The translations under genes were made by a program, and so were the position numbers. A stretch of 64,000 nt of DNA from Neolewinella lacunae (GTDB taxonomy: Bacteria; Bacteroidota; Bacteroidia; Chitinophagales; Saprospiraceae): NCBI RefSeq assembly GCF_014349155.1, contig NZ_JACSIT010000091.1, positions 62,001 through 126,000 on the forward strand. The letters run 5' to 3'. The notes beneath the pieces are model-generated. The model saw only the letters and a program-made list of their open reading frames with translations, searched no databases and was not told the DNA's origin. Positions 17,050 to 57,423 of the stretch are shown here, piece after piece. The stretch's first letter is position 1. Every line of letters starts with the position of its first letter.

Positions 17050-17622
17050 GTGAGGTCAAGACGTTTTACGTCGCAGTGTCAGGTGAGGTCAAGACGTTTT
17101 ACGTCGCAGTGTCAGGTGAGGTCAAGACGTTTTACGTCGCAGTGTCAGGTGAGGTCAAGACGTTTTACGTCGCAGCAGATGGGATCCGGACCTCTGGTCC
17201 GGCTGTGTTTTTAGCCCATGGAGTTACATGGAGTAGGGCATGGAGTTACATGGAGTTTTTTGCTGGTTCCGGACGAGACGTCCGGAACCAGTCAAGACGT
17301 TTTACGTCGCAGTGTCAGGTGAGGTCAAGACGTTTTACGTCGCAGTGTCAGGTGAGGTCAAGACGTTTTACGTCGCAGCAGATGGGATCCGGACCTTTGG
17401 TCCGGCTGTGTTTTTAGCCCATGGAGTTACATGGAGTAGGGCATGGAGTTACATGGAGTTTTTTGCTGGTTCCGGACGTCTCGTCTGGAACCAGTCAAGA
17501 CGTTTTACGTCGCAGTGTCAGGTGAGGTCAAGACGTTTTACGTCGCAGCGGATGTCTTTAATTCGACGTGAAACGTCTCAACCTCACCACCCTTTCTTCG
17601 ACGTGAAACGTCTCAACCTCAC
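17050..17622. repeat. Family A REP-like array I with embedded family B units
   Basis: Four direct 33-bp copies of GAGGTCAAGACGTTTTACGTC plus spacer at 17050-17175, three at 17292-17375, two at 17498-17550, then two inverted copies to 17622. Each holds the hairpin GACGT-NNN-ACGTC. Between the blocks are family B units: repeats of CATGGAGTTACATGGAGT and hairpins CCGGACC-TCT-GGTCCGG and CTGGTTCCGGACG-AGA-CGTCCGGAACCAG (13-bp arms). The 33-bp period keeps a frame open (GEVKTFYVAVS repeated), which is not a credible gene. Confidence 0.92.
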
Positions 17623-20954: not shown

Positions 20955-21159
20955 TGTGAGGTCGAGACGTTTTACGTCGAGGTGAGGTCAAGACATTTTA
21001 CGTGAGGTCGAGACGTTTTACGTCGAGGTGAGGTCAAGACATTTTACGTCGAGGTGAGGTCAAGACATTTTACGTGAGGTCGAGACGTTTTACGTCGAGG
21101 GGGGGCTTGAGCGTCATTTGCTGCGACGTGGAACGTCTTGACCTCACGTCTTGACCTCA
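20955..21159. repeat. Family A REP-like array II, upstream of the transposase
   Basis: Six forward copies, alternating GACGTTTTACGTC and the variant GACATTTTACGT, then a linker GGGGGGCTTGAGCGTCATTTGC and an inverted copy (GACGTGGAACGTC) ending in duplicated GTCTTGACCTCAC. It ends 28 bp before the RAYT start codon. Confidence 0.92.
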
Positions 21160-21187
21160 CAAACTCCAATTTAACTATCTTAGTTCC

Positions 21188-21849
21188 ATGAAAGAAGGAA
21201 CGCCCAGAATCCTACACCACAATCTTGACTACCAACCCGTGCACCTTTCCTACCGTTTGGCGGGCAGCCTCCCAGTAGCCGTATTGGACAAGATAAAATC
21301 GGACTACGAGCAAAGAAAAGCACAGTTGACAATACGATCAAATGAGCATCGTGCCCAGCCGCCGTCGAAGGACTATGCGAGGGAGATATTTGCCCTCCAT
21401 GCCCGGTTCGAACTAGAAATTGACGAGGCCCTGCACTCCATCAAAAGTGGCCCTTTTCACTTGGCCGATCCCTCCCTGGCTAAAGAGATAATTGATTCTT
21501 GAAGTTTCTGCACGATCGTCAAGAGATTTACCTGTACGTCGTTTGCGTGATGGGAAACCACGTACACGCCATCGTCCGCGCGCCCGAAGGAGTTGAGAAA
21601 GTAAACATCGGCAAATTAATGAATCGCCACAAGACACACACCGCCCAAGTGTGTAATAAGCTTTTGGGAAAAACGGGTGCCCCCTTCTGGGATCATTTCT
21701 ACTTTGACCGGACCATCCGCAAAAACAAATTTGAAAGGGCTATGTGGTACGTTCTGAACAACCCGGTGGAAGCTGGCTTGGTGCGGGATTGGCGGGATTG
21801 GGGAGGGACTTACCTTAATCCAGATTTTGATTCGCTGTTTCGTGGTTGA
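21188..21849 (+). pseudogene. REP-associated tyrosine transposase (RAYT, Y1 family), frameshifted
   Basis: Two overlapping frames make one Y1-transposase-like protein of about 220 residues. The first frame (21188-21502) ends LAKEIIDS-stop; the second resumes LKFLHDRQEIYLYVVCVMGNHVH at 21499. The HUH motif NHVH, the likely catalytic Tyr in FYFDRTIR and the C-terminal WYVLNNPVEAGLV match RAYT/TnpA-REP proteins. A single missing T at TTCTTGA (about 21496-21500) would restore one frame. The gene is flanked on both sides by family A repeats, as in RAYT-REP loci. It could be a decayed gene, a sequencing slip or a frameshift-expressed one. Confidence 0.88.
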
Positions 21850-21851
21850 GG

Positions 21852-22590
21852 GGAGGTCGAGACGTTTTACGTGAGGTCGAGACGTTTTACGTCGAGGGGG
21901 GCTTGAGCGTCATTTGCTGCGACGTAGAACGTCTTGACCTCACGTCGAGGGGGGCATTAGCGTCTTTGCTGCGACGTAGAACGTCTTGACCCCACCTGAG
22001 GTCGAGACGTTTTACGTCGAGGGGGGGCATTAGCGTCTTTGCTGCGACGTAGAACGTCTTGACCTCACCTGAGGTCGAGACGTTTCACGTCGAGGGGGGC
22101 TTGAGCGTCTTTGCTGCGACGTAGAACGTCTTGACCTCACCTGAGGTCGAGACGTTTCACGTCGAGGGGGGCTTGAGCGTCTTTGCTGCGACGTAAAACG
22201 TCTTGACCTCACGTCTTGACCTCACCTGAGGTCGAGACGTTTCACGTCGAGGGGGGCATTAGCGTCTTTGCTGCGACGTAAAACGTCTTGACCTCACGTC
22301 TTGACCTCACCTGAGGTCGAGACGTTTCACGTCGAGGGGGGCTTGAGCGTCTTTGCTGCGACGTAGAACGTCTTGACCTCACGTCTTGACCTCACCTGAC
22401 ACTGCGACGTAGAACGTCTTGACCTCACGTCTTGACCCTCACCTGAGGTCGAGACGTTTCACGTCGAGGGGGGGCATTAGCGTCTTTGCTGCGACGTGGA
22501 ACGTCTTGACCTCACGTCTTGACCTCACCTGACACTGCGACGTAGAACGTCTTGACCTCACGTCTTGACCTCACGTCTTGACCTCACGTC
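21852..22590. repeat. Family A array III: tandem BIME-like inverted pairs
   Basis: About eight units of a forward repeat (GAGGTCGAGACGTTTYACGTCGA), a linker (GGGGGGCATTAGCGTCTTTGC or a GCTTGAGCG version) and an inverted repeat (GCGACGTRRAACGTCTTGACCTCA), with extra solo inverted copies. I count about 18 hairpins. It directly follows the transposase and ends within the stop codon of the glycosyltransferase at 22584. Confidence 0.92.
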
Positions 22591-23860: not shown

Positions 23861-24003
23861 GGTGAGGTCGAGACGTTTCACGTGAGGTCGAGACGTTTCA
23901 CGTCGAGGGGGGCATGAGCGTCTTTGCTGCGACGTAAAACGTCTTGACCTCACTGCGACGTAAAACGTCTTGACCTCACGTCTTGACCTCACGTCTTGAC
24001 CTC
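23861..24003. repeat. Family A array IV
   Basis: Two forward copies (GACGTTTCACGT), the linker GGGGGGCATGAGCGTCTTTGC, two inverted copies (GACGTAAAACGTC) and three GTCTTGACCTCAC tails. It ends inside the stop codon of the next gene (24002). Confidence 0.9.
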
Positions 24004-36949: not shown

Positions 36950-37075
36950 AGGTGAGGTCGAGACGTTTCACGTCGAGGTGAGGTCGAGACGTTTCACGTC
37001 GAGGTGAGGTCGAGACGTTTCACGTCGAGGGGTATATGAGCGTCTTTCCTGCGACGTAAAACGTCTTGACCTCAC
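36950..37075. repeat. Family A array V, forward part
   Basis: Three forward copies of GAGGTCGAGACGTTTCACGTC, a linker (GGGGTATATGAGCGTCTTTC) and one inverted copy (GACGTAAAACGTC). Confidence 0.9.
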
Positions 37076-37085
37076 TGCTCAATCA

Positions 37086-37180
37086 CCAGCCTTAGCCCCT
37101 CTTCGTGTCCTTAGTGGTTCAAAAATGGTGGAGCCGTTTTATGGCGACTCATCACCTTTCGCCGTACAACGGCTCGAGCA
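37086..37180. repeat. Family F tract with an inverted hairpin pair
   Basis: A CTTAGTGGTTCAAAAA tract followed by GCCGT-TTT-ATGGC (37133-37145) and, inverted, GCCGT-ACA-ACGGC (37161-37173). Confidence 0.7.
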
Positions 37181-37194
37181 TTTGCCCGTCTCAC

Positions 37195-37388
37195 ACTGCG
37201 ACGTGGAACGTCTTGACCTCACCTGGCAGCTGCGACGTGGAACGTCTTGACCTCACCTGGCAGCTGCGACGTAAAACGTCTTGACCTCACCTGACACTGC
37301 GACGTAAAACGTCTTGACCTCACCTGACACTGCGACGTGAAACGTCTTGACCTCACCTGACACTGCGACGTGAAACGTCTTGACCTCA
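37195..37388. repeat. Family A array V, inverted 33-bp direct repeats
   Basis: Six inverted copies (GCGACGTNNNACGTCTTGACC) spaced by CTGGCAGCT or CTGACACT at 33 bp. Loop triplets vary (GGA, AAA, GAA) while the stem is fixed. The last copy supplies the TGA of the Wza-like gene. Confidence 0.92.
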
Positions 37389-44329: not shown

Positions 44330-44486
44330 ATTAGCCCGCTCGGAAATACTCCCAGCAACTCCATGCAACTCCATGGGCTAAGACTTACCGGACGGGACGT
44401 CCGGAACCAGGAAAAACTCCCAGCAACTCCATGCCAAGCATGAAATACTGCGAAGCAAACTCCATGCAACTCCATAGGCCAAAAAA
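44330..44486. repeat. Family B repeat cluster
   Basis: Copies of CAACTCCATGCAACTCCATG (the inverted CATGGAGT unit), a hairpin CCGGACG-GGA-CGTCCGG near 44389, and a CATGAAATACTGCGAAGCAA segment shared with the front of family G. Confidence 0.75.
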
Positions 44487-45841: not shown

Positions 45842-45945
45842 TTTTACCGGTTCCGGACGTCCCGTCCGGCAGATTCAGCCCATGGAGTTAAACATGGAGT
45901 TCAATGGAGTTACTGACCGGTTCCAGATGTCCCGTCCGGCAGTTT
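45842..45945. repeat. Family B repeat cluster
   Basis: Two hairpin copies (GGTTCCGGACG-TCC-CGTCCGG near 45849 and a decayed one near 45919) with CCCATGGAGTT units between. It lies upstream of the UDP-HexNAc dehydrogenase. Confidence 0.75.
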
Positions 45946-47114: not shown

Positions 47115-47680
47115 AGTTATTAGCCCATGGAGTACCATGGAGTAAGGCATGGAGTTACCTGGAGCGCTGAGGTGGAGACGTTTCACGTCGACCTAGTCTT
47201 TTAGCCCATGGAGTACCATGGAGTAAGGCATGGAGTTACTTGGAGCGCTGAGGTGGAGACGTTTCACGTCGACCTAGTCTTTTAGCCCATGGAGTACCAT
47301 GGAGTAAGGCATGGAGTTACCTGGAGCGCTGAGGTGGAGACGTTTCACGTCGACCTAGTCTTTTAGCCCATGGAGTGCCATGGAGTAAGGCATGGAGTTC
47401 ATTGGGGCGCTGAGGTGGAGACGTTCCACGTCGACATAGTCTTTTAGCCCATGGAGTACCATGGAGTAAGGCATGGAGTTACCTGGAGCGCTGAGGTGGA
47501 GACGTTTCACGTCGACCTAGTCTTTTAGCCCATGGAGTACCATGGAGTAAGGCATGGAATTACCTGGAGCGCTGAGGTGGAGACGTTTCACGTCGACTGT
47601 AATCCTCCCCTGCGCCACCTAACTCGTGATTGAACCCAGTAAACCCCTCGACGTAAAACGTCTCGACCTCACGCCCAGCC
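47115..47680. repeat. Composite 81-bp tandem array (families A+B) ending in a 99-bp inverted pair element
   Basis: Six copies of an 81-bp unit starting AGCCCATGGAG at 47122, 47203, 47284, 47365, 47446 and 47527. Each joins the CATGGAGT repeat to GAGGTGGAGACGTTTCACGTCGAC. The last copy passes into a 99-bp element (47573-47671) of two inverted family A hairpins with a unique linker, present in the opposite orientation at 57325-57423. Confidence 0.92.
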
Positions 47681-57324: not shown

Positions 57325-57423
57325 TGAGGTCGAGACGTTTTACGTCGAGGGGTTTACTGGGTTCAATCACGAGTTAAGTAGTGCGGGGGAGGATTACAGT
57401 CGACGTGAAACGTCTCCACCTCA
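57325..57423. repeat. 99-bp family A inverted pair, second copy
   Basis: GAGGTCGAGACGTTTTACGTC, a linker (GGGGTTTACTGGGTTCAATC...), then the inverted hairpin. Near-identical to the reverse complement of 47573-47671. A family F hairpin (GCCGT-ATA-ACGGC) follows at about 57429. From there to 57644 I see nothing else. Confidence 0.9.

Follow-up and report, generated by a model that had tools for sequence, protein, structure and literature searches.

How REP-associated tyrosine transposases (RAYTs, or TnpA-REP) select repetitive extragenic palindromes (REPs) and their cut sites is understood for a small number of proteobacterial enzymes with GTAG feet. In Escherichia coli (RAYT group 2, PDB 4er8), REPs lie on both sides of the transposase gene and in inverted pairs, forming bacterial interspersed mosaic elements (BIMEs), while the group 3 REPtron Mb of Marinomonas combines a GTAG foot and a 4-nt loop with a perfect 5-bp stem set two bases off the tetranucleotide (PMC8266576). 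Feet other than GT[AG]G were reported in 2018 for Bacteroidetes subclass 2.6 (RAYT group 5), as were CnGA feet for class 3 (PMC6006769). We analyzed a 64,000-nucleotide stretch of the 5.8-Mb draft assembly of Neolewinella lacunae (GCF_014349155.1, contig NZ_JACSIT010000091.1, positions 62,001 to 126,000), hereafter the window, which holds a frame-broken RAYT-type gene with arrays of the unit GAGGTC(G/A)A-GACGT-NNN-ACGTC on both sides. We consider it highly probable that this locus is a REPtron, in which the RAYT gene lies between cognate REPs, nonautonomous single-strand elements that the RAYT lineage would have spread genome-wide. An initial annotation had proposed the same cognate relationship, which a comparison of 62 RAYT genes supports and sharpens.

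The gene occupies 21188-21849 on the forward strand as two overlapping open reading frames (ORFs) separated by a one-base frame change, which could be a sequencing error. The N-terminal half (21188..21502, 104 aa) had no match in a Pfam search on its own and is recovered by a profile of relatives (E 1e-21, model positions 5-107). The same profile matches the C-terminal half (21499..21849, 116 aa; model positions 104-218), the catalytic Y1/HUH part, which also matches Pfam Y1_Tnp (E 9.9e-8). This half contains the HUH motif NHVH (21556..21567, residues 20-23), as initially annotated, and a single probable catalytic tyrosine (21748..21750, residue 84) within YVLNNP that is invariant in the RAYT alignment. 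Alignments to 4er8 and of 62 RAYTs match the segment WDHFYFDRTIR (21688..21720, forward strand) to E. coli W94, Q95, E100, H101, and R104, residues described as contacting the guide (PMC6006769). NCBIfam REP_Tyr_transpos (NF047646) scored 59.3 bits for the C-terminal half and 61.5 bits for a second RAYT of this genome, both under the cut-off of 80; it is nevertheless the best-matching NCBIfam family for both. The second RAYT (222 aa, stop-free) is 49% identical to the window RAYT and its only other match in the genome, and the two genes are flanked by different hairpin families. E. coli TnpA-REP was the best structural match of a predicted ortholog model, which differs in two additional helices past strand 1; the N. 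lacunae locus itself differs in its GGTY foot, 5-bp stem, and replacement of Q95 and H101. The perfect 5-bp stem, set two bases off the tetranucleotide, is shared with Marinomonas Mb, which differs in foot, loop length, and RAYT group.

The left array (20958..21145) comprises seven places and the right array (21853..22559) eighteen, the latter chiefly head-to-head pairs of the two forms defined below. Allowing up to three mismatches, the foot GAGGTCNA plus hairpin occurs at 59 places in the window, compared with 0.07 expected; 25 lie in these two arrays and the remaining 34 are spread over five further gaps. The initial estimate of about 60 copies elsewhere is right as a total only. GACGT-NNN-ACGTC itself occurs 54 times exactly (shuffle mean 0.03, maximum 1 in 100 shuffles). 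All 54 are intergenic, with no hairpin center inside any of 44 genes chosen by eye from the ORFs, a list that covers 87% of 3450-63965. The genome-wide count called for by the initial annotation gave 157 hairpins, versus 6 for the pattern read backwards, and 127 copies of foot plus hairpin.

To describe the anatomy of the repeat, we used 95 of the 157 copies, chosen by stem alone from the window and 14 other genome stretches. The commonest feet are GAGGTCAA (44), GAGGTCGA (17), and GAGGTGGA (13), and the first loop base, read from the foot, is T in all 95. The last two foot bases are coupled to the first two tail bases, with AA/GC in 48 copies, GA/GA in 34, and other combinations in 13. We term GA...GA around the stem form 1 and AA...GC form 2; every window copy belongs to one or the other (29 and 25, respectively). 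The AA/GC mismatch of form 2 matches one described for E. coli REPs (PMC8266576). In single-strand folding, one REP pair reached z −4.96, and lone hairpins were weak (−3.9 kcal/mol, z −1.2 to −1.5). No GTAG match occurs at the window locus, where the foot is GGTC.

We then compared 62 RAYT loci, divided into group A (32, the window type), B (16), and C (14). These labels come from the alignment and were assigned after some flanks were known; in the RAYT tree, C is a single branch (100/100), and two B-labelled genes, L057 and L059, fall among A. Hairpins with a GGYYRA foot occurred at least twice at 15 of 32 A loci (123 hairpins; 0.9 in shuffles) and at none of the 16 B or 14 C loci, and the wider foot GGYNRA was found at 19 A loci. 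A hairpin set two bases behind GTAG was present at 7/14 C, 2/32 A, and 0/16 B loci. In a foot-neutral ranking, the leading tetranucleotide was GGTC for A and GTAG for C (7/9 loci), and CTGG (6/10), GTAC (5/10), and GTAA (5/10) headed B. Counted on both strands, GGTC was found at 13/21 A loci, or 18/21 with GGTT, figures inflated by GACC tails, which are then scored as GGTC; using the loop T to set the strand lowered them to 9/21 for GGTC and 16/21 for GGTC or GGTT. That strand lock is unsuited to B and C (GTAC and GTAA at 2/10 loci each, GTAG outside the top six), whose feet rest on the foot-directed search and the both-strand ranking. When no pairing was required, at least half the copies of the commonest 5-mer after the foot had the complement next to them downstream at 13 of 32 loci, all in group A, as against 1/21 and 1/23 for control feet.

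Twenty-three families, with 16 different stems among them, all had T at loop base 1 and a pyrimidine at loop base 3; the tail began with G in 23 and continued with A in 21. Stem positions vary on both arms. This variation, like the foot conservation and the pairing counts, is in part a product of the selection, which took hairpins that paired perfectly and had a GG[TC]N[AG]A foot; loop and tail were unselected. In group A, a foot that is mostly GGTC or GGTT precedes two further bases, in most cases GA, then a 5-bp stem differing from species to species, a loop starting with T, and a GA tail. Of the two tetranucleotides initially proposed in the role of GTAG, GGTC stands and GAGG is ruled out, as the two bases preceding GGT vary between families. 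The group C RAYTs (L072, L077, L078, L079, and L080), with GTAG feet and ACGGC-type stems, provide a built-in positive control, and group B flanks (L063, L065, L067, L040, and L069) carry hairpins with mostly CTGCC/GGCAG arms and GTAC/GTAA-like feet, also non-GTAG. A code linking Q95/H101 to GTAG feet is suggestive only; L033 and L048 combine GTAG-like matches with window-type residues, and the RAYT groups are confounded by descent.

Individual stems are largely bound to species. RAYT relatives (E ≤ 1e-8) occur in 23 of 60 genomes, including 20 of the 21 of the genus, this genome counted. The foot plus GACGT hairpin, present 127 times here, had no exact match in the 59 relatives, in which this pattern, rather than the bare hairpin, was searched. 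The three nearest RAYT genes (in genomes G002, G014, and G015; 68-72% identical) have flanks of the same design with stem GACGC, which with its foot occurs 58 times in G002, 10 in G014, 21 in G015, 15 in G009, 6 in this genome, once in G005, and in none of the other 15. The GGGTG family beside the second RAYT has 87 copies here, 2 in G005, and none in 19 genomes; GGCTT has 43 in G004, 27 in G017, and none in 19; and GGGCC has 45 in G019, 36 in G020, 11 in G003, 3 in G014, 1 in G007, and none in 16. In 8/8 gene-family pairs examined, copies of the matching stem concentrate within 1.5 kb of the RAYT (3-21 copies versus 0.006-0.1 expected under an even spread; the P values ignore clustering of copies).

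Several observations weigh against the REPtron reading. The window RAYT is broken, and the open frame of its G002 ortholog lacks a start and spans just 178 aa, so RAYT decay is not limited to the window. At 11 of 32 group A loci no repeated hairpin lies within 1.5 kb, L033 and L048 have GTAG-like matches and no GGYNRA, and L034, L025, and L082 have other feet; one RAYT subgroup is without GGTY. Stem and RAYT distances correlate weakly (rho 0.16, with 282 of 5000 permutations as high), and rho falls to 0.04 once the four closest RAYTs are removed; co-divergence of stems with the RAYT tree is weak and nonsignificant beyond those four genes. A covariance model of the signature matched 19 of 21 genus genomes, with at least 24 to at least 149 matches each (lower bounds, at most 150 candidates per genome being scored). 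Among them are G006 (at least 71) and G011 (at least 24), where only group B/C RAYTs were found, whereas G018, with no RAYT found, had none. The initial annotation held that equal abundance in relatives lacking the RAYT would speak against it: the exact foot-plus-hairpin counts favor the annotation, and the signature in two of the three genomes without a group A RAYT does not. Furthermore, G013 has a group A RAYT yet no signature match, and the 27 GGCTT REPs of G017 are not matched by any close RAYT of the corresponding type. In the stretches examined in G006 (five), G011, and G017 (one each), the signature occurs on several different stems and RAYT relics are absent. Hairpin presence alone does not tie the repeats to the RAYT gene.

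These findings raise the question of whether the hairpins are instead intergenic repeats spread by recombination, slippage, or another enzyme, such as group B/C RAYTs, with window-type RAYTs merely residing in repeat-rich gaps. The signature in G006 and G011 fits this explanation, as do the tandem repeats of the window, whose periods (26-81 bp) resemble local amplification. It is nonetheless improbable given the pile-up of matching stems at RAYT genes, the dependence of the foot on RAYT group, and the two different families flanking the two RAYTs of one genome. E. coli REPs, moreover, are known to outlast their RAYT (PMC8049555), so the signature in genomes without a group A RAYT is not fatal to the REPtron reading. 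A double-stranded site for a regulator or nucleoid protein, or a terminator-like RNA hairpin, with no link to the transposase, would account for a perfect, intergenic inverted repeat; we judge it very improbable, as loop, foot, and tail are strand-specific, a symmetric site has no need of the invariant loop T, lone hairpins are weak, and tandem runs reach 18 copies. Least probable of all, to the point of being negligible, is a conventional IS200/IS605 insertion sequence whose ends have decayed. Its relevant NCBIfam model (NF033573) scored 15.7 and 33.5 bits against a cut-off of 55, the genome has no second near-identical gene copy, and hairpins greatly outnumber the gene; the E. coli RAYT is the better fit.

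For the REPtron, we infer guide use, cleavage, and copying by analogy with the E. coli, Stenotrophomonas, and Marinomonas systems (PMC8266576). The enzyme would bind a folded single-stranded REP with the approximate consensus GGTY-RA-[5-bp stem]-TNY-[stem]-G(A/C), reading the loop T and using GGTY as guide tetranucleotide in place of GTAG. The stem sequence would be free to drift, giving species their own stem families. Head-to-head pairs of form 1 and form 2 would represent a unit of BIME type, multiplied by tandem amplification and dispersed over intergenic sites. With the window RAYT broken, the GACGT family would either no longer move or depend in trans on the second, intact RAYT, whose own hairpins carry GGTT/GGCT.

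The origin of the GGTY foot was considered using 52 loci from named genomes that had no part in deriving the signature: one from Lewinella cohaerens and 51 others, which lie outside Lewinella/Neolewinella or hold more distant genes (one is N. agarilytica L161). A GGYNRA family appeared at two of them, in L. cohaerens, where one of two copies has the complete tail, and in an uncultured Saprospiraceae, where two copies do not retain it. The 34 of these loci with a repeated hairpin gave TGTA at 17, CGTA at 13, GTAA at 12, GTAC at 11, and GTAG at 11, counted on both strands, and none of 28 loci from other genera, partly overlapping this set, had two or more GGYNRA-type hairpins. A scan of the named genomes with the C-terminal half alone found no relative, whereas one with the RAYT alignment did. 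These feet suggest a change from GTA type to GGTY in Lewinella/Neolewinella; with GTA-type feet in related RAYTs elsewhere and GTAC/GTAA-like and GTAG feet within the genus, GGTY looks like a guide switch. That a single RAYT lineage made this switch, with its cut site moving along, is a tentative proposal that we hold to be somewhat less probable than its converse. Under the cross-complementarity rule tested on Marinomonas REPs, by which the cut dinucleotide is set by guide bases 3+4 or 2+4 (PMC8266576), GGTC would specify GA or GC, the dinucleotides that directly follow the hairpin here in forms 1 and 2, respectively. If so, every REP would bring its own guide-matched cut site, located at the 3′ foot. 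As caveats, a GA tail is also found in the GGTT families and there requires a T-G pair, cut sites known so far need not adjoin the hairpin, and the tail may be structural (GA/GA or AA/GC mismatches).

The window locus was also compared with three described types and differs from each. Subclass 2.6 shares the phylum, the lack of GT[AG]G, weak hairpins, and further copies across the genome; its published motifs are WQ and YIH[QN]NP (PMC6006769), whereas group A genes have W followed by E/A/D/N/T and YVLNNP-like sequences (WD and YVLNNP in the window), with Q after W in 0/32 by eye. Subclass 2.4 (RAYT group 4) shares NH[IFV]H, and its YIxNNP resembles YVLNNP/YILNNP; WQ and GT[AG]G REPs, sometimes double-footed, set it apart, and the group C genes of the genus are a better fit. 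CGTC-tagged REPs are likewise short palindromes reported from Bacteroidetes, but have 8-9 bp stems, 4-5 nt loops, and CCA-type tails and flank no transposase gene (PMC3733652); here the stem is 5 bp, the loop 3 nt, and CGTC lies merely within one species' stem, with no unpaired tag.

The five other gaps with REPs lie at 17052..17620 (nine form 2 copies, mostly spaced at 33 bp, then two inverted form 1 copies), 23864..23977 (a cluster), 36954..37387 (an array), 47169..47670 (an array on an 81-bp tandem shared with another repeat, CATGGAGT), and 57326..57422 (a pair). A second repeat, CATGGAGTNNCATGGAGT, occurs at 19 window places with up to two mismatches (0.02 expected), at 17217-17459, 44348-44476, 45893-45910, and 47126-47548, and also at L008; it alternates with REPs in the 81-bp tandem (47126-47594). 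The hairpin GGACC-TCT-GGTCC at 17180-17205, 17383-17408, and L008 360-390 has the stem of REP families next to the G002 and G020 RAYTs (L051 and L088). It is perhaps a relic REP family, the matching RAYT being absent here. Broken frames or inner stops were also seen in L082, L050, G015:C1:168978, and G016:C15:18571, and RAYT gene decay seems common in the genus. Among distant relatives, profile matches fall in open frames of 1082-1332 codons (G101:C1:142104, G329:C3:1459, G305:C53:1239, G356:C44:9421, and G207:C40:8900), either fusions or just long open frames.

No GGTC/GGTT REP was found described in the available portions of PMC3733652, PMC6006769, PMC8266576, PMC2817692, and PMC8049555; the subclass 2.6 feet sit in a supplement outside that search, and an earlier description is possible. 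As far as our searches reach, the kind of system is known, and the GGTY guide, the fixed frame across many stems, and the differing feet within one genus are new. Non-GTAG REPs of Bacteroidota thereby gain a concrete form, in a genus where RAYT genes are seen decaying or missing while hairpins persist. One genus combines GGTY, GTAC/GTAA-like, and GTAG feet with many stems on one frame (GGTY, loop T, and GA tail), and this combination distinguishes features that the enzyme probably has to read from those that may be free to drift. The genus offers a natural test of how RAYTs find their targets, in which the guide rule becomes testable via foot swaps.
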